From positions 2,914,001-2,978,000 of the forward strand of contig NZ_CP034929.1 in NCBI RefSeq assembly GCF_004014875.1: a stretch of DNA of 64,000 nt, read 5' to 3'. The position numbers and the translations under genes are program-made. Position 1 is the first letter of the stretch. Every line of letters begins with the position of its first letter. This document shows, one piece after another, positions 3,490 through 10,630 of this stretch. The notes below the pieces were generated by a model. That model was not told where the DNA came from. It was given only the letters and a program-made list of their open reading frames with translations, and ran no database searches. The DNA comes from Nocardioides yefusunii (GTDB lineage Bacteria; Actinomycetota; Actinomycetes; Propionibacteriales; Nocardioidaceae).

Positions 3490-3981
3490 ATGGCCGACTC
3501 GTCGTTCGACATCGTGAGCAAGCTGGACCGCCAGGAGGTCGACAACGCGCTGGGCCAGGCTGCCCGCGAGGTCGCCACCCGCTTCGACTTCAAGGGCACC
3601 AACGCCACGATCGAGTGGTCCGGCGAGCAGGTCATCGAGATCTCCGCCTCCGCTGACGACCGTGCGACCGCCGTCCTCGACCTCTTCAAGGAGAAGCTGA
3701 TCAAGCGTCAGCAGTCCCTGAAGATCCTCGACGCCGGAGAGGTCCGCCAGTCGGGCCAGCTCTCCAAGATCACGATCACCCTCAAGGAGGGCATCTCCAC
3801 CGAGGACGCGAAGAAGATCTCCAAGCTCATCCGCGACGAGGGCCCCAAGGGCGTCAAGGCGCAGATCCAGGGCGACGAGCTCCGCGTCTCCTCCAAGAAG
3901 CGTGACGACCTGCAGGCCGTCCAGGCGCTGGTCAAGGCTCAGGACTACGACTTCGCGGTCCAGTTCCAGAACTACCGCTGA
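3490..3981 (+). CDS. yajQ: YajQ family nucleotide-binding protein
   Basis: This 163-residue protein opens with [20 protein letters not shown] and has [13 protein letters not shown] and an ending of [11 protein letters not shown], all hallmarks of the YajQ (DUF520) family. Members of the family bind nucleotides, and some bind cyclic di-GMP. A strong AGGAGG lies 8 nt before the ATG at 3490. The last five codons and the stop form the attachment core of the adjacent mobile element (17-bp repeat at 3966-3982 and 10614-10630). The gene stays intact, but its probable native terminator now lies 6.7 kb away at 10673-10704. Confidence 0.93.
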
Positions 3982-3982
3982 C
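3966..3982 (+). repeat. attL core, 17-bp direct repeat within yajQ 3' end
   Basis: CCAGAACTACCGCTGAC covers the last yajQ codons and TGA stop and is repeated exactly at 10614-10630. Sequence on both sides diverges abruptly, as expected for an integrase crossover core. Confidence 0.85.
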
Positions 3983-4012
3983 CTACGCCTGTGCCTGCAG
4001 GCCAGAGGCTTC

Positions 4013-5137
4013 CTAGGTTGCCTCAGTCCGCACAGAGTCCGCATTCTGTGCGAACGCGGACTGCATGAGGTGCTGCGCCGCCGATCGAGTCCGGTCGGCG
4101 GCGTCCAGCCACAGGTGGGAGTACGTGTTCAGCGTGATGGACGCCTGGGAGTGCCCAAGAGCCCGCTGGACCGTCACCACGTCGCACCCGGCCGCGATCA
4201 GGCCGGAGGCGTAGAAGTGCCGCAGGTCGTGAAGGGTGAACGCCTCGAGCGCGACCGCGGCCCGAGTACGGCGCCACTGGTGCCCAGCTGACGACCTGTT
4301 GAGCAGGTTCCCCCACACGTCGGCGAACAGCCACTGCTCGGGGCCGTGCACGCCGACCGTCTGCACATGGCGCGCGATCAGGTCGACCAGGTCCGGCGGG
4401 AGGTGGACCGTGCGCTCTGACCCGAACTTCGGGGGCACGATGGCCAGGTTCGCCACGTTGGTCCCTTGGACTTGGCGCCGAACGTGCAGGGTGCGGCGCA
4501 GGAAGTCGACGTCACCGAGCTGCACGCCGGCCGCCTCCCCTAGGCGCAGGCCAGCAAACGCACACAGGGCCACGAAGCCGGCGAACCATTCGGGTGCTTC
4601 ACGGACGGCGCGGCCGACACCCTCGGGCGTCGGGATGCTGACCGAGGACACCGAGGCGCGCGGCTTGCGCGGCAACGTCACTCCGGTGCACGGGTCCTCG
4701 TGGATCAGCTTGTCCTTCTGCGCCGCAAGGAAGGCGCCGTGGACGTAGTTGTAACGGGTGTGAATGGTGGAGACCGCCAGGCCGCGTGGACGGCTTCCAC
4801 CGGGCGCCTGCAGCGTCTTGATCCAGTGCTGCACCTGAGTCGGCTGGATCCGGTTCAGAGGGATGTCGCCGAACGTCACACAGTCGGCGGCCTGCTGGGC
4901 GCTGATGCGCGTGCCAGCGGCCCAGACCTGACGCTCGGAGTAGACGGCGAACCACTCCGAGAAGGTGATCTTGCCGGCCACCGGATCGACGTAGGTCCGC
5001 GTCCGCATGGCCTGCCGCTGCTCCGCCAGGAAGTCCTGGGCCGCGCGCTTGGTGTCGAAGTGCCGCGCACGCTCGCGGCCGGAGGGATCCCGGTAGCGCG
5101 CCCGCCACTTCCCGTTGTCACGCCTCTGGACGCTCAT
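4013..5137 (-). CDS. int: Tyrosine recombinase (site-specific integrase)
   Basis: This 374-residue phage-type integrase has an N-terminal arm-binding domain (about 1-50, RRDNGKWRARYRDPSGRERARHF), a SAM-like core-binding domain (about 58-150) and a catalytic domain (about 165-355). The catalytic residues are visible: Arg198 (AGLRLGE), Lys237 (PPKFGS), His303 and Arg306 (LHDLRH), His329 (LGHSQ) and the nucleophile Tyr339 (LNTYSH). It should recombine attP with the yajQ attB. It sits at the left end facing attL, as expected. Its first 20 nt overlap the end of the XRE gene, so the two are co-transcribed. Its last codons include the 20-bp repeat also found near attR. Confidence 0.95.
   Translation of the reverse strand: MSVQRRDNGKWRARYRDPSGRERARHFDTKRAAQDFLAEQRQAMRTRTYVDPVAGKITFSEWFAVYSERQVWAAGTRISAQQAADCVTFGDIPLNRIQPTQVQHWIKTLQAPGGSRPRGLAVSTIHTRYNYVHGAFLAAQKDKLIHEDPCTGVTLPRKPRASVSSVSIPTPEGVGRAVREAPEWFAGFVALCAFAGLRLGEAAGVQLGDVDFLRRTLHVRRQVQGTNVANLAIVPPKFGSERTVHLPPDLVDLIARHVQTVGVHGPEQWLFADVWGNLLNRSSAGHQWRRTRAAVALEAFTLHDLRHFYASGLIAAGCDVVTVQRALGHSQASITLNTYSHLWLDAADRTRSAAQHLMQSAFAQNADSVRTEAT
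4024..4043 (+). repeat. Left copy of inner 20-bp direct repeat (candidate integrase arm site)
   Basis: CAGTCCGCACAGAGTCCGCA begins 41 bp inside the left core and overlaps the 3' end of int. An identical copy lies at 10486-10505, 108 bp inside the right core. The unit itself contains AGTCCGCA twice. Position near both ends suggests arm-type integrase or Xis binding sites. Confidence 0.6.
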
Positions 5138-5669
5138 CAGTCACCCCGGGATCCCAGAGAGGGACGCTCACCGCAACCCTGTCGCCAGCGCCAGGCACGA
5201 AGTCCATACCCAAGGGACCATCGGCGCCCTCCAAAGCAGCGGCAACCAACGCCACTGCACCGCGCTCGAGCATGTACAGATCCATCCCTGCGGGATCCGC
5301 GTAGTCCGCCGGCTTCAGGCCCGTGCGGTAAAAGAAGTCGTCAGCTGTCATCTGACTCTCCTCGTAACGCACGGCCGCAAAGGCCAGCGCCATGCCATCA
5401 CTTCGCAGCGCTCCCAGAGCTGCACGCGCGTTTCTCACCCGGCCAGGCTCAAGGAACGCACCAGGCCCACCGACGCCAAGGATGCGCGCCAAGTCCTCGC
5501 CCTCGGCTAGCCGGAGGGGGCGGTCCCCCTTCTCGACCGACCACACCGTGGACTGACTCCACTTCCCGTGGCCCCCCTCAGCCATCGCCAGCGCCACCTC
5601 GGCCTGAGTCATCCCTCGACCCTCGCGCGCCTCACGGACCGCCTTGCCGATCTCCGTGTCCTTCGCCAT
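5118..5669 (-). CDS. XRE/Cro-CI family transcriptional regulator
   Basis: This 183-residue protein has an N-terminal helix-turn-helix: GKAVREAREGRGMTQAEVALAMA then WSQSTVWSVEKGDRPLRLAEGEDLARIL (about residues 8-65). The C-terminal part is of unknown fold. It lies between the int gene and the divergent rightward operon, where a lysogeny-type repressor would sit. No Shine-Dalgarno precedes the ATG at 5669. A candidate -10 (TAGTGT, 5677-5682) and -35 (TTGTGG, 5700-5705) on the minus strand place the transcript start at or next to the ATG, so translation may be leaderless. The repressor role is inferred from position. Confidence 0.82.
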   Translation of the reverse strand: MAKDTEIGKAVREAREGRGMTQAEVALAMAEGGHGKWSQSTVWSVEKGDRPLRLAEGEDLARILGVGGPGAFLEPGRVRNARAALGALRSDGMALAFAAVRYEESQMTADDFFYRTGLKPADYADPAGMDLYMLERGAVALVAAALEGADGPLGMDFVPGAGDRVAVSVPLWDPGVTDERPEA

Positions 5670-5676
5670 GCAGGAG

Positions 5677-5705
5677 ACACTACGAGAATTCCCTGTTGAC
5701 CACAA
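5677..5705 (-). promoter_or_regulatory. Candidate leaderless promoter for the XRE-int operon
   Basis: On the minus strand, TTGTGG and TAGTGT are separated by 17 nt, and the ATG lies 7 nt after the -10. The boxes match consensus weakly (3 of 6 each), but the spacing is exact and no ribosome-binding site is present, consistent with a leaderless mRNA. Confidence 0.4.
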
Positions 5706-5724
5706 TTGGCTTTCTTGGTTTACT
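5696..5724 (+). promoter_or_regulatory. Candidate promoter of the rightward satellite operon
   Basis: TTGACC (5696-5701) and TTTACT (5719-5724) are 17 bp apart on the plus strand and point into the xis-to-capsid operon. The -35 overlaps the -35 of the opposing XRE promoter, a layout typical of a lysis-lysogeny type switch. Confidence 0.55.
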
Positions 5725-5730
5725 CCAACT

Positions 5731-5762
5731 CTAGAAACACCAGTCAATGTCAACTAGAAACA
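5731..5762. promoter_or_regulatory. Candidate operator: two CTAGAAACA direct repeats
   Basis: CTAGAAACA occurs at 5731-5739 and 5754-5762, 23 bp apart (about two helical turns), just downstream of the rightward promoter. GTTGAC at 5695-5700 and GTCAAC at 5749-5754 add an inverted pair. Likely ligands are the XRE regulator or the Xis-like protein; this is inferred from position. Confidence 0.45.
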
Positions 5763-5771
5763 GGAGTAACC

Positions 5772-5981
5772 ATGAAGGTTGCACTGCAGGATCCGCTGCT
5801 CCGCATTGAGGATGTAGCCGCCCTGACCGGGATCCCGGTCAACACGTGGCGGACGTGGATCGCAAGCAAGAAGGGCCCCCAGCCGGCCAAGCTCGGGGGC
5901 CGACTGTTCTGGCGCCGCTCCCAGATCGACCGCTGGCTGGACGAGCAGTTCGCCGCCGCGGCCGCGAGTGAGCGCAAGTGA
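5772..5981 (+). CDS. Excisionase/AlpA-like helix-turn-helix protein
   Basis: This 69-residue protein has a MerR-type winged HTH of the excisionase family: LLRIEDVAALTGIPVNTWRTWIASKKGPQPAKLGGRLFWRRSQIDRWLDEQF. It probably acts as recombination directionality factor and/or activator of the satellite operon. AGGAG at 5762-5766 fixes the ATG at 5772. It is the first gene of the rightward operon. Its TGA overlaps the GTG of the next micro-ORF by 4 nt. Confidence 0.8.
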   Translation: MKVALQDPLLRIEDVAALTGIPVNTWRTWIASKKGPQPAKLGGRLFWRRSQIDRWLDEQFAAAAASERK

Positions 5982-6079
5982 ATCTGGCCGGAGACGCAGC
6001 GAGCCGCCTGGTGCTGGAACACCAGACGGCTCAGAACGGACCACACATCTGCCCGGCAGGCATCAGGGAGACCGCATGA
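5978..6079 (+). CDS. 33-codon micro-ORF, translationally coupled
   Basis: The ORF starts at a GTG that overlaps the xis stop (GTGA) and ends at a TGA that overlaps the next ATG (ATGA). The product would be a 33-residue peptide beginning NLAGDAAS and ending GIRETA with a single Cys; no family is recognised. Precise 4-nt overlaps on both sides, like the rest of the operon, are the main evidence. It may serve only to carry ribosomes between genes. Confidence 0.5.
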   Translation: MNLAGDAASRLVLEHQTAQNGPHICPAGIRETA

Positions 6080-6117
6080 GCACTGTACCGAGACCGCCGC
6101 GCCCCGGGCGGTCATGA
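6076..6117 (+). CDS. 13-codon leader ORF before the replication gene
   Basis: An ATG at 6076 preceded by AGGGAG (6065-6070, 5 nt spacing) opens a 13-codon frame (starts MSTVPRPPR). Its TGA at 6115-6117 overlaps the ATG of the replication gene. It overlaps the preceding micro-ORF by 4 nt as well. The strong ribosome-binding site here, rather than directly before 6114, suggests that translation of the replication protein is coupled to this leader. Confidence 0.5.
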   Translation: MSTVPRPPRPGRS

Positions 6118-6734
6118 TGGGTGCCCGGAATGTCTCCGCTGTCTTCACCTTCTGGAGCAAGCGTCTGGACTCGGCGCCCTTCCGCGTCCTCACCTACATG
6201 GCTCTCATCACCCACGATGACGATTCCAAGCAGCCTCGTTTCTGGGGTGGCTGGGAAGTGCTGGCGTCCGTCGCCCTCGGACGCGACCTGACCCTTGGGT
6301 CCGAGGAGGCACACCGTCGAGCGGTCTCACGAGCCATCGAAGCACTCCGCAAGGCCGGCGCGCTCACCAACGCCCAGGAGTCCGCCACCGGCAGGCGCGC
6401 CGAGTACTTCCTTCACTTCACCGGAACACACGACGCTCATCGTCCTGTGGGCAAAGCGGTACCGACGACAGACGCGACACAGCAGCACACGACGCTCAGC
6501 GACAGGGACACACGACGCTCACTGACCGAACGTACGACGCTCAGTGGCGAGGCATACGACGCTGACCGTCGCCCCAAGGAAGTACAGGAACCACAAGGAA
6601 CTACCTCAGGAATCAACACTCATTCACCGACCGCAACTCACCGTCACGCGCGCGTGACGGTCGCGGAGATGAATGGAATGGAGAAGGTGAGGGCAGCCCT
6701 CGCCGACGCCCAAGGCATGGAGGCGGCGTCGTGA
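6114..6734 (+). CDS. Winged-helix replication initiator-like protein with embedded iterons
   Basis: This 206-residue protein has an N-terminal winged-helix region (about 8-103: FTFWSKRLDSAPFRVLTYMAL, WGGWEVLASVALG, EEAHRRAVSRAIEALRKAGAL) like phage and plasmid replication or primosome-loader proteins. The middle (about 106-151) is low complexity and is the translation of repeated 10-bp iterons (ACGACGCTCA). That is the layout of replicons whose origin lies inside the rep gene. The C-terminus is basic and unremarkable. It is coupled to its neighbours by 4-nt overlaps on both sides. Assignment as initiator rests on the HTH plus the iterons; no polymerase or helicase motif is present. Confidence 0.6.
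   Translation: MMGARNVSAVFTFWSKRLDSAPFRVLTYMALITHDDDSKQPRFWGGWEVLASVALGRDLTLGSEEAHRRAVSRAIEALRKAGALTNAQESATGRRAEYFLHFTGTHDAHRPVGKAVPTTDATQQHTTLSDRDTRRSLTERTTLSGEAYDADRRPKEVQEPQGTTSGINTHSPTATHRHARVTVAEMNGMEKVRAALADAQGMEAAS
6430..6565 (+). repeat. Iteron array (ACGACGCTCA), candidate replication origin
   Basis: ACGACGCTCA occurs at 6430-6439, 6489-6498, 6512-6521 and 6534-6543, and as ACGACGCTGA at 6556-6565. The last four are spaced 23, 22 and 22 bp, about two helical turns, so a protein would bind them on one face. They lie inside the presumed initiator gene. Confidence 0.65.
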
Positions 6735-6961
6735 GCAGCGAGCACCTGAGCACGGACCAGTACGCCGACGTGCGCCAGGCACTCGAGGACGCCGACCGCG
6801 TGGCCGGCGACATCATCACCTGCGTCACCGAGACCGGAGCACTACTGGTCGACGCCAACAAGGTGGAGTTCCTGGCCCGCCGACTGCAGGCCCTGACTCG
6901 AGGCTGCCTCGAAGCCGAGCAGCGTTCGCGTCACACCAGCAGGCGGGAGAACCGAGCGTGA
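6731..6961 (+). CDS. Hypothetical protein of satellite operon (76 aa)
   Basis: A GTG start overlaps the preceding stop by 4 nt and the TGA overlaps the next GTG by 4 nt. The product is predicted mostly helical: DQYADVRQALEDADRVAGDII, then VDANKVEFLARRLQALTRGCLEAEQ, with a basic tail. No family is recognised. Small acidic-then-basic helical proteins like this are common between replication and structural genes of actinobacterial elements. Confidence 0.6.
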   Translation: MSSEHLSTDQYADVRQALEDADRVAGDIITCVTETGALLVDANKVEFLARRLQALTRGCLEAEQRSRHTSRRENRA

Positions 6962-7236
6962 TCCCCGTCGACTCCGCCGACGCCCGAGAGCAGCGCGAGG
7001 CCGCAGAGACTGATGCTGTAGCCGCGGTGCCGCACCCGGTGGGTTGCCGTGGAGGCTGGCTAGGAGAGGACGCCGAAGGGCGTCCCCGTCCCTGCCTCGC
7101 GTGCCGGCCGCACCTGGCCCGAACCGACTGCTGCTCGTGTCGGTCGCCCTGGAGCTCGTGCGACACGCTCCGGCTCACGGGCAAGGGACCGTGTTGCCCG
7201 GCCTGCGATCACCGACCGCCGAGGCCGCGCAGGTGA
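6958..7236 (+). CDS. Cys-rich putative zinc-binding protein (92 aa)
   Basis: A GTG start overlaps the previous stop by 4 nt. The protein has two Cys clusters: GCRGGWLGEDAEGRPRPC then LACRPHL, followed by DCCSCRSPWSSCD and GPCCPACD. The spacing of CxxC pairs suggests one or two zinc ribbons. The block CxGGWLGEDxxGRPRPC-xx-C resembles short proteins found in actinobacterial phages and integrative elements; this is from memory of such proteins, not a search. Function unknown, possibly DNA binding. Confidence 0.65.
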   Translation: MIPVDSADAREQREAAETDAVAAVPHPVGCRGGWLGEDAEGRPRPCLACRPHLARTDCCSCRSPWSSCDTLRLTGKGPCCPACDHRPPRPRR

Positions 7237-7619
7237 TCCGCCCCCACCTCATGGACGGCCGCGTCGTCGCGATCATCGACGGGCCCGAACTGCAACACCT
7301 CGCGGCGCTAGCTGCTCGCACCGACAGCGCACTGCAGTGGCGCGGGCAGGGAGCACTCCCGTGGGCTCGCGACTTGGAGCACGCCGCGGGCATGGCCAAG
7401 TCGGTCGGCGCCTCGGTTCCGCTTCCGGAACCTCGTGCAGACAGAACCCCCTTGGCTGAACAACCGTGGTCCTCAACAGCAGAGGCGGCACGCCTGCTGG
7501 GCATCTCGGAGAGGGCAGTCCGCAAGCGGATCACCACCGGGAGCCTGCGAGGCAGCAAGGTCGCCGGCCGCTGGCTGGTGAACCTCATTCACTCCTCCAC
7601 ACGAAACGAGGGCCCATGA
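7233..7619 (+). CDS. Helix-turn-helix protein with C-terminal excisionase-type domain (128 aa)
   Basis: A GTG at 7233 overlaps the previous stop by 4 nt, which decides the start. Residues 1-70 have no recognised fold. The C-terminus holds a MerR/excisionase-type HTH: SSTAEAARLLGISERAVRKRITTGSLRGSKVAGRWLVN. The stop overlaps the capsid gene ATG (ATGA). Its place right before the capsid gene suggests a DNA-binding role in regulation or packaging (a small-terminase-like part), but only the HTH is seen. Confidence 0.65.
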   Translation: MIRPHLMDGRVVAIIDGPELQHLAALAARTDSALQWRGQGALPWARDLEHAAGMAKSVGASVPLPEPRADRTPLAEQPWSSTAEAARLLGISERAVRKRITTGSLRGSKVAGRWLVNLIHSSTRNEGP

Positions 7620-8992
7620 CCCTGCACGAACTCATCACCCGCAAGCGCTCCGCGCTGGCGTCCCTGCTGAACGAGCGGGCAACCAACGTCCACGAGCTGG
7701 CCCAGATCGCCGAGCGCGGCACCGCCGCGCCCTCCGACGAAGCGCGTGTCGCCCAACTGCGCCAGCGCCAGGGCCAGATCGACTCCGAGGCGCGTGGCAT
7801 CGAGCGGACCATCGCTGACCTCGAGGCCGCCGCCGCGGATGACGCCCTGGCCACGGCCCGCGCCGAGGTTCGCGTACCCGCGTCTCCCTCGCCCTCTCTG
7901 GCCTCCGGTGCCGGCGCGCCCGCCGAGCTCGGAACCCGAGGCGCCTGGATCAACACCGACACGGGTGCCCCGGCTGCGCTGCGCTCCGGCGAGACGCTGA
8001 CGCAGCGCGTCGCCCAGTTCGCGCCAACGCGCCAGGACTCGGCCGTCATGAGCGCGCATGAGAACGTCGGCTCCTTCGTCCGCGCGCTGGCCACCAGCGG
8101 AGGCGGCGCGGCTGTCGTGCCGACCTCTTGGTCCGCGACCATCATCGACCAGGCACGCAGCCTCTCTGCACTCGGTCAGGCCGGGGCAACCCTGATCCCG
8201 ATGGAGACCAAGACCGTCGAGATCGGTCGCCTGCTCTCCGACCCGACGTCGGGATTCCGCACCGAGGGCTCCACCATCACCGCGTCAGACCCGACGTTCG
8301 ACAACGTGACCCTGACCGCGAAGACCGCCAGCGCGCTCACCGTGGCATCTCTCGAGTGGTTCGACGACTCTCAGGAGGGCCAGCAGCTCATCGAGCAGGC
8401 CATCTCCCAGTCCATCGCGAACACGATCGACGTCGCGGGCCTCTATGGCGGCATCACGACGGGCGCCGGCGCCATCAACCTCGCCACTCCCCCGAACCCT
8501 CGCGGTGTCTTGGCCGCGCTCAACGCCAACCGGCCCGCCAACGTGCTCGGCACCGCTGCAGCGAACGGCACCACGCAGACGGCCGCGACGTTCTGGAGCG
8601 AGATCATCGATCTCCTGTTCACGGTGCAGGACGGCAACGAGACCCCCACTGGACTGCTCTGGAACTCCAAGGTGGCCCGCCAGTACGCCAAGGCAACTGC
8701 CACCGACGGCCAGCCCCTGCAGGTCCCCGACGCGGTCAAGGCTGTCCCGAGCTTCGTCACGAACCAGATCCCGTCCTACACCAAGGGCACGATGACCACC
8801 GCCACGGACGTGTTCGCCGGAAACTGGTCCCAGCTCCTCATCGGCCAGCGCCTCGGCGGGATCAAGATCCAGATCCTCACCGAGCGCTACGCCGAGAACG
8901 GCCAGGTCGGCATCGTCGCCCACTGGCGCGGCGACATCCAGCCGGCACGCTCCAGCGCGTTCTCCGTGCACCGCGCTCTTCTGGGGGCTTGA
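7616..8992 (+). CDS. HK97-fold phage major capsid protein
   Basis: This 458-residue protein has an N-terminal helical part (about 1-80, rich in Arg, Glu and Ala) like the scaffolding delta domain, a Pro/Ser/Ala linker (about 88-105), then a capsid domain. The latter shows features of the HK97 family: VVPTSWSATIIDQARSLS, FRTEGSTITASDPTFDNVTLTAK, SLEWFDDS, NPRGVLAALN, GLLWNSKVARQYAKA and AHWRGDIQPARSSAFSVHRAL. It lacks any neighbouring protease, portal or terminase. It may build satellite-sized capsids with helper proteins or interfere with helper assembly. The ATG at 7616 overlaps the preceding stop. Confidence 0.9.
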   Translation: MTLHELITRKRSALASLLNERATNVHELAQIAERGTAAPSDEARVAQLRQRQGQIDSEARGIERTIADLEAAAADDALATARAEVRVPASPSPSLASGAGAPAELGTRGAWINTDTGAPAALRSGETLTQRVAQFAPTRQDSAVMSAHENVGSFVRALATSGGGAAVVPTSWSATIIDQARSLSALGQAGATLIPMETKTVEIGRLLSDPTSGFRTEGSTITASDPTFDNVTLTAKTASALTVASLEWFDDSQEGQQLIEQAISQSIANTIDVAGLYGGITTGAGAINLATPPNPRGVLAALNANRPANVLGTAAANGTTQTAATFWSEIIDLLFTVQDGNETPTGLLWNSKVARQYAKATATDGQPLQVPDAVKAVPSFVTNQIPSYTKGTMTTATDVFAGNWSQLLIGQRLGGIKIQILTERYAENGQVGIVAHWRGDIQPARSSAFSVHRALLGA

Positions 8993-9240
8993 TGCCCAGC
9001 CGCAAGAAACCCCTGATCATAGACGGCGGGGAGCACCGAAGAGATCCCGCCACCGTCTTCTACCTCGACGGGGAACCGGACCCGGCACAGGCTCACACGC
9101 CCCGAGGCTGCTTCCAGCACCACGTGACCTACACGCACCCCGAGACCGGAGAGCAGGCCGTCTTCACTCCCGGCGAACTCGTGCCCGAGTGGTTCCCCGG
9201 GACCGCCACCCCTGCGGAGGGCCCCTCCTCCACCCCCTGA
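8992..9240 (+). CDS. Hypothetical small protein downstream of capsid gene (82 aa)
   Basis: The ATG at 8992 shares its A with the capsid stop (TGATG), so it is co-translated with the capsid protein. The sequence is polar with His, Pro and acidic residues: IIDGGEHRRDPATVFYLDGEPDPAQ, then HHVTYTHPETGEQAVFTPGELVPEWFPG. No family is recognised. By position it could be a head accessory or decoration protein; this is inference. It is the last gene of the rightward operon. Confidence 0.65.
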   Translation: MPSRKKPLIIDGGEHRRDPATVFYLDGEPDPAQAHTPRGCFQHHVTYTHPETGEQAVFTPGELVPEWFPGTATPAEGPSSTP

Positions 9241-9790
9241 CTCCCTGCTCAGGCCCGTCCGGGAGCGCTCTGCGACGGCGCATCCCTTCCATCCCGGCCG
9301 GGTCGGTGTGATGGCCATGAGCAGGGTCACGAGCCCCCGAGACAGCGTCTCCGACGTTGCCTCGGGGGCTCGCTTGCTGCCCCTTGAAGCCCACTCCGGC
9401 CAGGGCGAGGCTCAGCCAGCGCGAGTCCCAAGGAGAGCCGACCTCGCCGGCAGGCACGGCCAGCCTCGGCCCGACTCAGCCGCAATGCAGAAGTCGCACC
9501 GCGACACGCTGCAGGCACGCGTTCACGCACGCAGGCACGCACCCGGACACACCTCCCGCGGCGATCTGCCCGACTTTTTAAGCGTGAACCTCGCATGCTG
9601 ACCCCGCCCTCGACCATTTCTCACACGGGATTTTTTTCTTGCGTGCACCCCGAGAGTTGAAACGGTCTCGCCTGCCGACTGTCGCGCTGCCATGCTCCGC
9701 CCATGCATCTGGACCTTTTCCGCCTCAGGGACATCAACCCGCTCTGTGCCCACGTCCGCTTCCTCTCTCGTTCCTTGAACCAAGTACAAC
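9241..9790. other. 550-bp non-coding stretch of the satellite
   Basis: No convincing gene lies here. It holds an 11-bp inverted repeat (9331-9341/9361-9371), the pair GTTCACGC (9521-9528)/GCGTGAAC (9582-9589), a doubled GCAGGCACGC (9511-9520 and 9531-9540), a CTTTTTA run (9574-9580) and T7 near 9631. In so dense an element a stretch this long may contain a terminator, a packaging (cos/pac) site or a small RNA; none can be proven from sequence alone. Confidence 0.5.
9331..9371 (+). terminator. Probable terminator of the satellite rightward operon
   Basis: GAGCCCCCGAG (9331-9341) and its complement (9361-9371) form an 11-bp stem with a 19-nt loop, about 90 bp after the last gene of the operon. 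There is no clear T-tract. Confidence 0.5.
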
Positions 9791-9819
9791 AGTGCCCCAC
9801 CCGTGACGGGTGGGGCACT
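9791..9819 (-). terminator. Terminator of the DUF6907-like gene
   Basis: A perfect 13-bp stem (AGTGCCCCACCCG and complement) has a 3-nt loop and is located 22 bp after the stop of the minus-strand gene. On the minus strand it is followed by TGTTGTACTT. It may act in both directions. Confidence 0.8.
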
Positions 9820-9841
9820 GCGCTTCCTCGGCACCTCGTCC

Positions 9842-10180
9842 TCAGGACTGAGACTCCAACCAGCGTGCCGCCGATGCGGCGTTGTCAGCCAGATCCAGGA
9901 GAACGCCCGACTCAGCACTCAAGCCAGCCAGCCTGAGGACCTCGAGGTTGCTCTCGATCGTCAGCGTCATCGCACCGGACACGAGATCGCCCTCGCCCTG
10001 CCCCTGGAACGGACCGAACCGCGGCCCAACGTGCCTGAGCAGCACCTGCACCGTGCCCTCGTCATCGCCCGGACACACACGGAAGTCCCGCGCCTCGTGC
10101 TCGCCCGGCGTCGAGCACCACTCCGGGCACACAGGACGGAAGTCGGTGAAGGTGTCGGCGGCAGCTGCGGCAGTAATCAT
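9842..10180 (-). CDS. DUF6907-like protein (112 aa)
   Basis: The protein has CPEWCSTPGEHEARDF near the N-terminus, then VQVLLRHVGPRFGPFQG and a C-terminal region with LTIESNLEVLRLAGLSAESGVLLDLADNAASAARWL. The CPxWC...H opening and the late helix-rich end resemble DUF6907-type actinobacterial proteins of unknown function, often found on integrative elements. AGGGGA upstream supports the ATG at 10180. It is transcribed away from the small HTH gene at 10279 and has its own hairpin terminator, so it forms a separate unit at the right end of the satellite. Confidence 0.65.
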   Translation of the reverse strand: MITAAAAADTFTDFRPVCPEWCSTPGEHEARDFRVCPGDDEGTVQVLLRHVGPRFGPFQGQGEGDLVSGAMTLTIESNLEVLRLAGLSAESGVLLDLADNAASAARWLESQS

Positions 10181-10240
10181 GCGAGGTCCCCTAGATCCCG
10201 TGTCCTCGACGGTCGTCAAGTAGGACCTAGATTGACGGAA

Positions 10241-10260
10241 CCCTTGTCGCTCGTCAAGGG
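10241..10260. promoter_or_regulatory. Inverted repeat between divergent right-end genes
   Basis: CCCTTG (10241-10246) and CAAGGG (10255-10260) flank an 8-nt centre. TCGTCAAG is present both in this repeat and at 10213-10220. It lies in the 98-bp space between the divergent genes at 9842-10180 and 10279-10467 and could be an operator for the small HTH protein. Confidence 0.35.
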
Positions 10261-10278
10261 GTTTGCCAGAATCGGGCC

Positions 10279-10467
10279 ATGCCCGAGAACCTGGCCGGCG
10301 CCGCCGAGATCGCAGAGCTCCTCAACGTGTCCCGACAGCGGGTCCACCAGCTCACCGAGGGGGACGACTTCCCCGATCCCGTCGCCGTACTCAAGGCCGG
10401 GAAGATCTGGGAGCGCGCCGACGTCGTGGCCTGGGCACGCGAGCACGGCCGCACCATCAACGAGTGA
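10279..10467 (+). CDS. Small AlpA-like helix-turn-helix protein (62 aa)
   Basis: A compact HTH of the MerR/AlpA kind fills almost the whole protein: LAGAAEIAELLNVSRQRVHQLTEGDDFPDPVAVLKAGKIWERADVVAWAREHGR. The recognition helix (VSRQRVHQL) and wing (AGKIWERADVVAW) are clear. It may regulate the divergent DUF6907-like gene or act at the nearby right-end att site as a second directionality factor. ATG at 10279. Confidence 0.75.
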   Translation: MPENLAGAAEIAELLNVSRQRVHQLTEGDDFPDPVAVLKAGKIWERADVVAWAREHGRTINE

Positions 10468-10485
10468 CCCGCGCCGCGGCGCCTC

Positions 10486-10505
10486 CAGTCCGCACAGAGT
10501 CCGCA
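10486..10505 (+). repeat. Right copy of inner 20-bp direct repeat
   Basis: CAGTCCGCACAGAGTCCGCA is identical to 4024-4043 and lies 108 bp inside the right core repeat, beyond the last gene of the satellite. Candidate integrase arm site. Confidence 0.6.
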
Positions 10506-10613
10506 AAAGATTCATCAAGCACCCCAAACACCCATCAAGCCAGAACCGCATAACCACAGGTCAGAGCCACTTCTCACCGTTGGCGATCAGATCGGGTTCA
10601 GGCGGGGTCATTA

Positions 10614-10630
10614 CCAGAACTACCGCTGAC
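10614..10630 (+). repeat. attR core, 17-bp direct repeat
   Basis: CCAGAACTACCGCTGAC is an exact copy of the yajQ 3' end at 3966-3982. To its right the sequence resumes what should be the original yajQ downstream region. Confidence 0.85.

Follow-up and report, generated by a model that had tools for sequence, protein, structure and literature searches.

What can an island do with a single capsid gene? The question is raised by a 6,665-bp island (positions 3966-10630) in the 64-kb stretch of Nocardioides yefusunii DNA analysed here (contig NZ_CP034929.1; the window), in which a preliminary description recognised an integrase, an XRE-family regulator, an Xis-like protein, an iteron-bearing replicon and one HK97-type major capsid protein (MCP) gene. 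The repeats and the Pfam and PHROG matches agree with that inventory, the match of the replication initiator being weak. On balance, we favour the reading that the island is a satellite resembling the phage-inducible chromosomal islands (PICIs), and that its MCP would build all or part of a shell with the portal, terminase and tail of a helper phage. The relatives described below define a family of satellites that have each retained one shell gene, from a lineage of their own, joined in some members by a tape-measure gene. Such a family allows a test of whether portal and terminase can act on a shell that is foreign to them, and of the minimum share of the virion that a satellite contributes.

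Is the island whole, or is it what deletion has left of a prophage? We compared it with 20 homologous loci: 14 from a scan of one genome per species, two close viral contigs and four from relatives of the host (genomes G202, G178, G191 and G140). Together with the window, these make the 21 loci counted below. The loci gave 233 open reading frames (ORFs), 36 of which were set aside because they were probably antisense, spurious or flanking; among the 197 scanned (112 + 85) there were 20 Phage_capsid matches (11 + 9) and no portal or terminase, the results covering the 25 commonest families of the 134 + 124 PHROG and 27 + 35 Pfam families matched (the integrase of L019 lies outside the bounds of its scanned locus). 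The absence of portal and large terminase subunit (TerL) rests on whole-genome searches with three profiles only, and none of these, phrog_12 (portal), phrog_9 (TerL) or phrog_2 (TerL), matched in any of the 21 loci. Away from the islands, the same genomes gave matches to phrog_12 in 2 of 18, phrog_9 in 4 of 18 and phrog_2 in 6 of 21, placed as off-island by position or contig only; the phrog_2 match in the L017 genome sits on a separate 7,538-base contig. As a positive control, the same library found TerL (4.8e-72), portal (3.5e-78) and protease (5.5e-39) in prophage L044, the MCP of which is 23% identical to that of the island.

The other virion genes of the family are few. A head protease occurs in one locus of 21 (L021) and a tail-tip-like gene in two, and six islands (L019, L023, L024, L027, L029 and L042) have tape-measure genes (ORFs of 538-924 aa). 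L040 has a weak Dit-like match (2.8e-5), and an ORF of L041 is related to the one that follows the tape measure of prophage L044. We do not claim short tails from the island tape measures, as L044 itself has a related protein of 548 aa.

The preliminary description had asked whether the homologues always lie inside larger prophages. They do not: of the 20 islands tested for repeats (the window island and every homologue except L017), nine have at their two ends direct repeats of 15 bp or more that agree with the end of a host gene; these nine measure 6.7-9.6 kb and occupy eight different sites:

Window island, 6.7 kb: yajQ
L015 and L016, 8.4 and 8.3 kb: tRNA-Ser
L019, 8.9 kb: glutamine-synthetase-like gene (named by eye)
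L020, 9.1 kb: ychF-like gene (named by eye), with a 15-bp repeat, the weakest case
L023, 8.8 kb: tRNA-Leu
L040, 8.9 kb: tRNA-Met
L041, 9.6 kb: tRNA-Val
L042, 9.0 kb: end of another ORF

In addition to these nine, L028 interrupts a ComM-like (Mg-chelatase) gene. In the other islands tested, either no convincing direct repeat was found or the contig ends first: the contigs of L018, L029 and L030, like that of L017, break off within the locus, no terminal repeats were found in the viral contigs L029 and L030, and L024 has an internal repeat only. We set aside as chance the 13-bp repeats of L026 and L027 and a 15-bp repeat in L039, the copies of which lie 13 kb apart and not at the end of a gene. 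Serine integrases replace the tyrosine ones in some islands; in the second set, five ORFs match PF07508 (Recombinase). A second tyrosine-recombinase gene lies between the excisionase-like and replication genes in L015 (6830-7747; phrog_1 1.6e-36) and, by similarity, in L016 (2978-3904) and L021 (7880-8734).

Taken alone, the window copy, with no other recognisable virion or packaging gene, would suit a degenerate prophage that has retained its capsid gene by chance. Against this, independent islands show similarly reduced gene sets and closed ends, all 21 MCP reading frames are open, and the island MCPs branch apart from the prophage MCPs sampled. Neither the island nor the MCP tree, with the prophages sampled, gave signs of a defective prophage, such as remnants of packaging or tail modules or an intact prophage as a close relative. 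We prefer a satellite-type island to a deleted prophage because the MCP persists, without portal or TerL, in homologous islands that differ in integrase, site and replication gene; this sustains the view of the preliminary description that the ORFs of the island look intact. Decay of the island is unlikely, and we give very little credence to a prophage that kept its capsid gene by accident.

The island (G+C 67.5%, compared to 69.6% for the whole window) is bounded by a 17-bp direct repeat, CCAGAACTACCGCTGAC, that has no third copy on the same strand of the window and that constitutes the 3' end of the host gene. The integrase and XRE regulator face leftward, and the excisionase-like, replication, helix-turn-helix (HTH), capsid and orfC genes rightward; a small minus-strand gene and then a small excisionase-like HTH gene occupy the right end. 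The features are as follows.

3491..3981, + strand: host gene, which we take to be yajQ (a name assigned by eye); attL consists of its last codons; 58 of 59 genomes of the genus have a match
3966..3982: attL, 17-bp direct repeat, exact match to 10614-10630
4013..5137, - strand: tyrosine integrase (PF00589 8.6e-21, phrog_1 1.9e-65)
4024..4043: 20-bp repeat, left copy, identical to 10486-10505; possible integrase arm site
5118..5669, - strand: XRE-family regulator (HTH_31 1.5e-7, phrog_3 7.5e-6), likely the repressor
5772..5981, + strand: HTH_17 excisionase or AlpA-like regulator (HTH_17 9.2e-11, phrog_66 1.3e-12)
6114..6734, + strand: O-like replication initiator (phrog_391 0.0042, weak)
6429..6564, + strand: five iterons inside the replication ORF, likely origin
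6731..6961, + strand: orfA, overlapping its neighbours; no Pfam or PHROG family
6958..7236, + strand: orfB, Cys-rich; no Pfam or PHROG family
7233..7619, + strand: HTH_17 DNA-binding protein (HTH_17 3.9e-6 on a longer ORF; start at 7233 presumed)
7616..8992, + strand: HK97-fold MCP, 458 aa (PF05065 1.6e-27, TIGR01554 1.9e-34; AlphaFold2 mean predicted local distance difference test, pLDDT, 89.3)
8992..9240, + strand: orfC, 82 aa, putative capsid partner with the motif HPETG..VFxPGE..PEW
9842..10219, - strand: orfD, containing CPxWC; no Pfam or PHROG family for the window copy
10279..10467, + strand: small excisionase-like HTH protein (phrog_66 9.9e-8; 42% identity over 52 residues to one in L020)
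10486..10505: 20-bp repeat, right copy; possible integrase arm site
10614..10630: attR, 17-bp direct repeat, exact match to the left copy

Ten of the island ORFs were scanned with Pfam and PHROGs at E<=0.1, and the eleventh (10279-10467) separately. The terminase, portal, protease, tail and lysis genes that the preliminary description reported missing were not recognised in these scans, and no head, tail or lysis family besides the MCP appeared in the ten ORFs, bar two marginal matches: 'terminase small subunit' (0.021), confined to the generic HTH of the HTH protein at 7233..7619, and 'head-tail connector' (0.091) for orfC. We do not claim a small-terminase role for the HTH protein, as that sole match falls on its HTH; the protein also matches TIGR01764 at 1.1e-4, under the cut-off of that model. 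Its stop overlaps the MCP start (ATGA), and the genes for HTH protein, MCP and orfC form one overlapping cluster.

Two side observations belong here. In a relative (genome G266), about 180 bp beside yajQ (L070 1285-1461) resemble the end of the island integrase at 70% identity; since no integrase-like ORF was seen by eye in the stretch fetched, this is probably the scar of another element at the same site. Small CPxWC proteins recur, by eye, in L041 (13778-14089), L042 (13884-14246), L027 (6855-7343) and the window (9842-10219), and three ORFs of the first set encoding such proteins match DUF6907.

Is the MCP then a genuine capsid protein? Over residues 18-451 of 458 it scores 119.5 bits against TIGR01554, the NCBIfam HK97 model (cut-off 27.5), and it also matches phrog_10 at 8.9e-41. 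The AlphaFold2 model, built from a 64-row alignment, predicts a complete HK97 fold with a helical, delta-like N-terminal domain (3-84): helices 3-33 and 39-84 are followed by a loose linker (85-103) and the HK97 core, conserved residues beginning at about 120. Foldseek with this model retrieved HK97-type capsids, including that of HK97 (E about 1e-11), with TM-scores of 0.5-0.7 by target and at most 0.4 by query. There are 393 relatives at E<=1e-10 among the 7,996 candidates scored; every organism name given among the 120 listed is actinobacterial, except for one soil metagenome, and one MCP locus comes from a metagenome-assembled genome labelled Planctomycetota. Among 50,697 phage records we found no close relative: five match, none over 80% of the query, and the best covered has about 28% identity over 65%.

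A single shell gene might also form a domesticated, encapsulin-like compartment or a stand-alone anti-phage device, the HK97 fold being common to encapsulins. However, the families that the MCP matches are models of phage capsids, its gene belongs to a replicon with an integrase, and it has no PADLOC match, while the PADLOC matches of three other ORFs fall on small HTH domains. Neither an encapsulin nor a defence gene is supported, and we consider this the most improbable of the readings weighed here.

The gene that follows is also informative. A small ORF usually begins within a few bases of the MCP stop, and in 13 of the 18 loci that make up the main MCP clade the orfC motif follows closely after the MCP. 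The 646 kb of loci contain 15 matches to the motif, every one of them in that position (twice in tandem, as divergent copies, in L026 11051-11534 and L028 11431-11919), and none occurs in seven prophage or viral controls; the motif was derived from sequences in which it was then counted, so these counts are positional evidence and no independent proof. A homologue search with orfC returned only orfC itself, and its fold prediction is poor (pLDDT 70.7, predicted template modelling score 0.41), with two short strands and loose tails. We infer that orfC encodes a capsid-accessory protein.

A lone capsid gene need not make a shell. The preliminary description named as possible uses own capsids made with helper parts, resized helper capsids and interference with phages. 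SaPIbov5 carries one capsid-protein homologue, Ccm, and no protease was identified in it; Ccm is homologous to the capsid protein of phi12, takes the place of that protein at pentamers and redirects head size, but forms no capsids alone, an inability tied to its missing long N-arm (PMC8569155). With this direct precedent, and since the island also lacks portal and protease, its MCP might likewise enter the helper shell at selected positions, force a small size and harm the helper, making no shell by itself. Unlike Ccm, which is homologous to the capsid protein of its helper, the island MCP has no close relative in the phage records searched (a comparison by description); it is predicted to retain a helical N-terminal domain (3-84), whereas Ccm lacks the long N-arm; and orfC usually stands beside it. 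Redirection of this kind is possible, though we doubt it. Judged from sequence and model, the island MCP would fit a shell former better than a redirector because of its own lineage, its scaffold-like N-terminal domain and its partner gene.

The history of the MCP was examined in a quick tree of 32 MCPs, 11 of them from prophages, phages and plasmids. Eighteen island MCPs form one clade (Shimodaira-Hasegawa-like approximate likelihood ratio test, SH-aLRT, 99) and those of L040-L042 a second (99); the 11 others fall outside both, so that islands versus the rest amounts to one change on the tree. Were the MCP a captured late gene, it would be a passenger or a mild interference factor, unneeded for transfer, as is reported for an E. 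coli PICI. We think this unlikely, as the main clade has been kept across four families (Micrococcaceae, Microbacteriaceae, Micromonosporaceae and that of the host) while integrases, regulators and neighbours change, the partner gene is mostly present, and nonsynonymous divergence is well below synonymous divergence in the closest pair (L015/L016: dN 0.143, dS 0.57). The integrases of L019 (3807-5048) and L024 (3650-4825) are 96% identical, whereas their MCPs are 68% and their tape measures 59% identical, and their regulators have diverged too; this suggests that island modules are exchanged. With L017 left out, the MCP tree requires five changes to explain the six islands that have a tape-measure gene, so this gene has probably been gained or lost several times.

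The family is scattered and mostly actinobacterial. Counting the host genome each time, MCP-bearing genomes at E<=1e-60 number 1 of 394 in the class sample and 3 of 391 in the order sample, and 13 of 294 genomes in the family sample have an MCP match at E<=1e-3, again with the host included. Eight of these 13 were classified (G003, G008, G036, G128 and G245 were left out): five are islands used here (G000, the host, with G202, G178, G191 and G140), two are prophages (G187 and G281), and in G292 the capsid gene has a portal, a terminase and a tape-measure gene as neighbours.

How would the island replicate? The iteron [CT]ACGACGCT[CG]A occurs on the + strand at 6429, 6488, 6511, 6533 and 6555 (spacing 59, 23, 22 and 22 bp), inside the replication ORF, with one further match elsewhere in the 64 kb. 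The case for iterons rests on clustering and regular spacing, their number alone not being striking. In phage lambda, the iterons lie inside the O gene; since those of the island also lie inside its replication gene, we suggest by analogy that its replicon is likely lambda-O-like. The replication ORF resembles one in L017 (6.9e-6), which matches phrog_270 'replication initiation' (6.8e-5). The replication ORFs of L017 and L021 hold their own, different in-gene repeats (spaced 22/22 and 47/23 bp), and the same screen found repeats of this kind in 4 of the 21 loci.

Is such an element without parallel? PICIs are reported to have specific att sites unused by prophages and the integrase beside a divergent repressor, with xis, initiator and origin opposite (PMC6092414). 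The island has this layout, with integrase and XRE regulator (the presumed repressor) on the minus strand and the xis-like gene and iteron-bearing replication ORF, a weak initiator match, on the plus strand. PICIs are given there as 10-20 kb long, compared to 6.7-9.6 kb for the islands here, and as replicating by primase/rep; the window island has instead a weakly O-like initiator with iterons, and no primase family was matched in its scanned ORFs (Pfam, PHROGs), whereas the related island L020 does carry a primase (3.1e-72). Gram-negative PICIs share with the island an integrase, an AlpA-like regulator, a replication module, few genes and a capsid gene, a likeness by description to elements of a different host phylum. 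The preliminary description held the island to be much smaller than the capsid-forming satellites known so far, with their sets of head genes. Small it is, but the contrast is overstated, since lone capsid genes are reported in 21 of 29 reference PICIs of the E. coli type (PMC10111431), in mycobacterial candidate PICIs and, as Ccm, in SaPIbov5.

The island also fits the working definition of the mycobacterial candidate PICIs (including phiRv1/phiRv2-like elements), a phage-like region with an integrase and an MCP; these sit at tRNA genes or have serine integrases, and some, unlike the island, carry terminase and scaffold genes (PMC10654092; MCPs compared by description). No Mycobacterium name occurs among the named entries of the 120 listed MCP relatives. 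As four of these candidates are reported there to have been missed by SatelliteFinder, there is precedent for our suggestion that such elements would escape searches requiring several head genes together. The capsid-forming PICIs (cf-PICIs) and the Streptomyces satellites MulchRoom and MiniFlayer encode a capsid, as the island does, but are described as also carrying portal, terminase and other head genes (PMC10690885); the cf-PICI set of portal, terminase, protease and connectors was not recognised in the island ORFs by the Pfam and PHROG searches.

The C. difficile plasmids of the pCD630 family are, like the island, replicons of about 8 kb with one HK97-type MCP, and the two inspected, pCD630 (L045) and pCD-ISS1 (L046), have no other annotated head gene. 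Unlike the island, they are circular, with a helicase and no annotated integrase, and their MCP is distant (29% identity over 50% of the query). Protection in particles is reported for the DNA of an element that matches pCD-WTSI1, a related plasmid (76% coverage, 92% identity); the authors found no capsid gene in that element (PMC10993401), so this protection is not proof of packaging by an MCP of its own. In pCD630, an HNH endonuclease gene lies near the capsid gene. Lone capsid genes in satellites are thus already known; the mainly open-access literature yielded no report of this island family, its MCP lineage, small size and replicon, or the recurrent pairing of MCP with tape measure.

The satellite reading can be put as a sequence of steps. 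A helper phage would relieve repression of the island, which would excise at the yajQ repeats and replicate from the in-gene iterons. MCP and orfC protein would then be synthesised, the N-terminal domain of the MCP acting as scaffold, and all or part of a small head would be assembled on the helper portal. The helper would supply the terminase to fill it with DNA, usually the maturation protease, and the tail; those relatives that add a gene for a tape measure or a tail-tip-like protein may also determine tail length or the compatibility of the tip. By scaling, a genome of less than 10 kb would go with a small shell, for example of T=3 or T=4. A bolder version, which we offer tentatively and believe less than we doubt, is that these are 'ruler-only' satellites, bringing only the proteins that set dimensions, MCP for the head and, repeatedly gained or lost, a tape measure for the tail, and taking all other parts from diverse helpers, with an MCP lineage that would have evolved in satellites and have no known phage counterpart.

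Of course, several observations weigh against a satellite that builds its own shell. The evidence for satellite life is anatomical, read from sequence. Of the 18 island genomes searched, only 2 have a phrog_12 portal at any position, so that most lack a resident helper of that type. An empty site was not found, the right flank having no blastn match within 1.5 kb past yajQ in the 29 relatives compared. The split between island and non-island MCPs has an SH-aLRT of only 67, and with several long branches the deep placement is unsure. No orfC was seen in 5 of the 18 main-clade loci (one cut by a contig end) or in the three of the second clade. The replication-gene family match is weak (0.0042), and the 12-mer ACACGACGCTCA, allowing at most one mismatch, has three matches, a number also reached in 5 of 100 shuffles. 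Finally, the E. coli PICI capsid gene is reported to be dispensable for transfer (PMC10111431).

A second element lies in the same genome, outside the window (G000:C1, about 1225465-1241731; L077 12466 to L078 8831). It is 16 kb long, lies between two identical tRNA-Asn copies and encodes TerL, portal, an integrase, a tape-measure protein of 340 aa and, in one ORF, a protease-capsid fusion; it is possibly a helper or a capsid-forming satellite.

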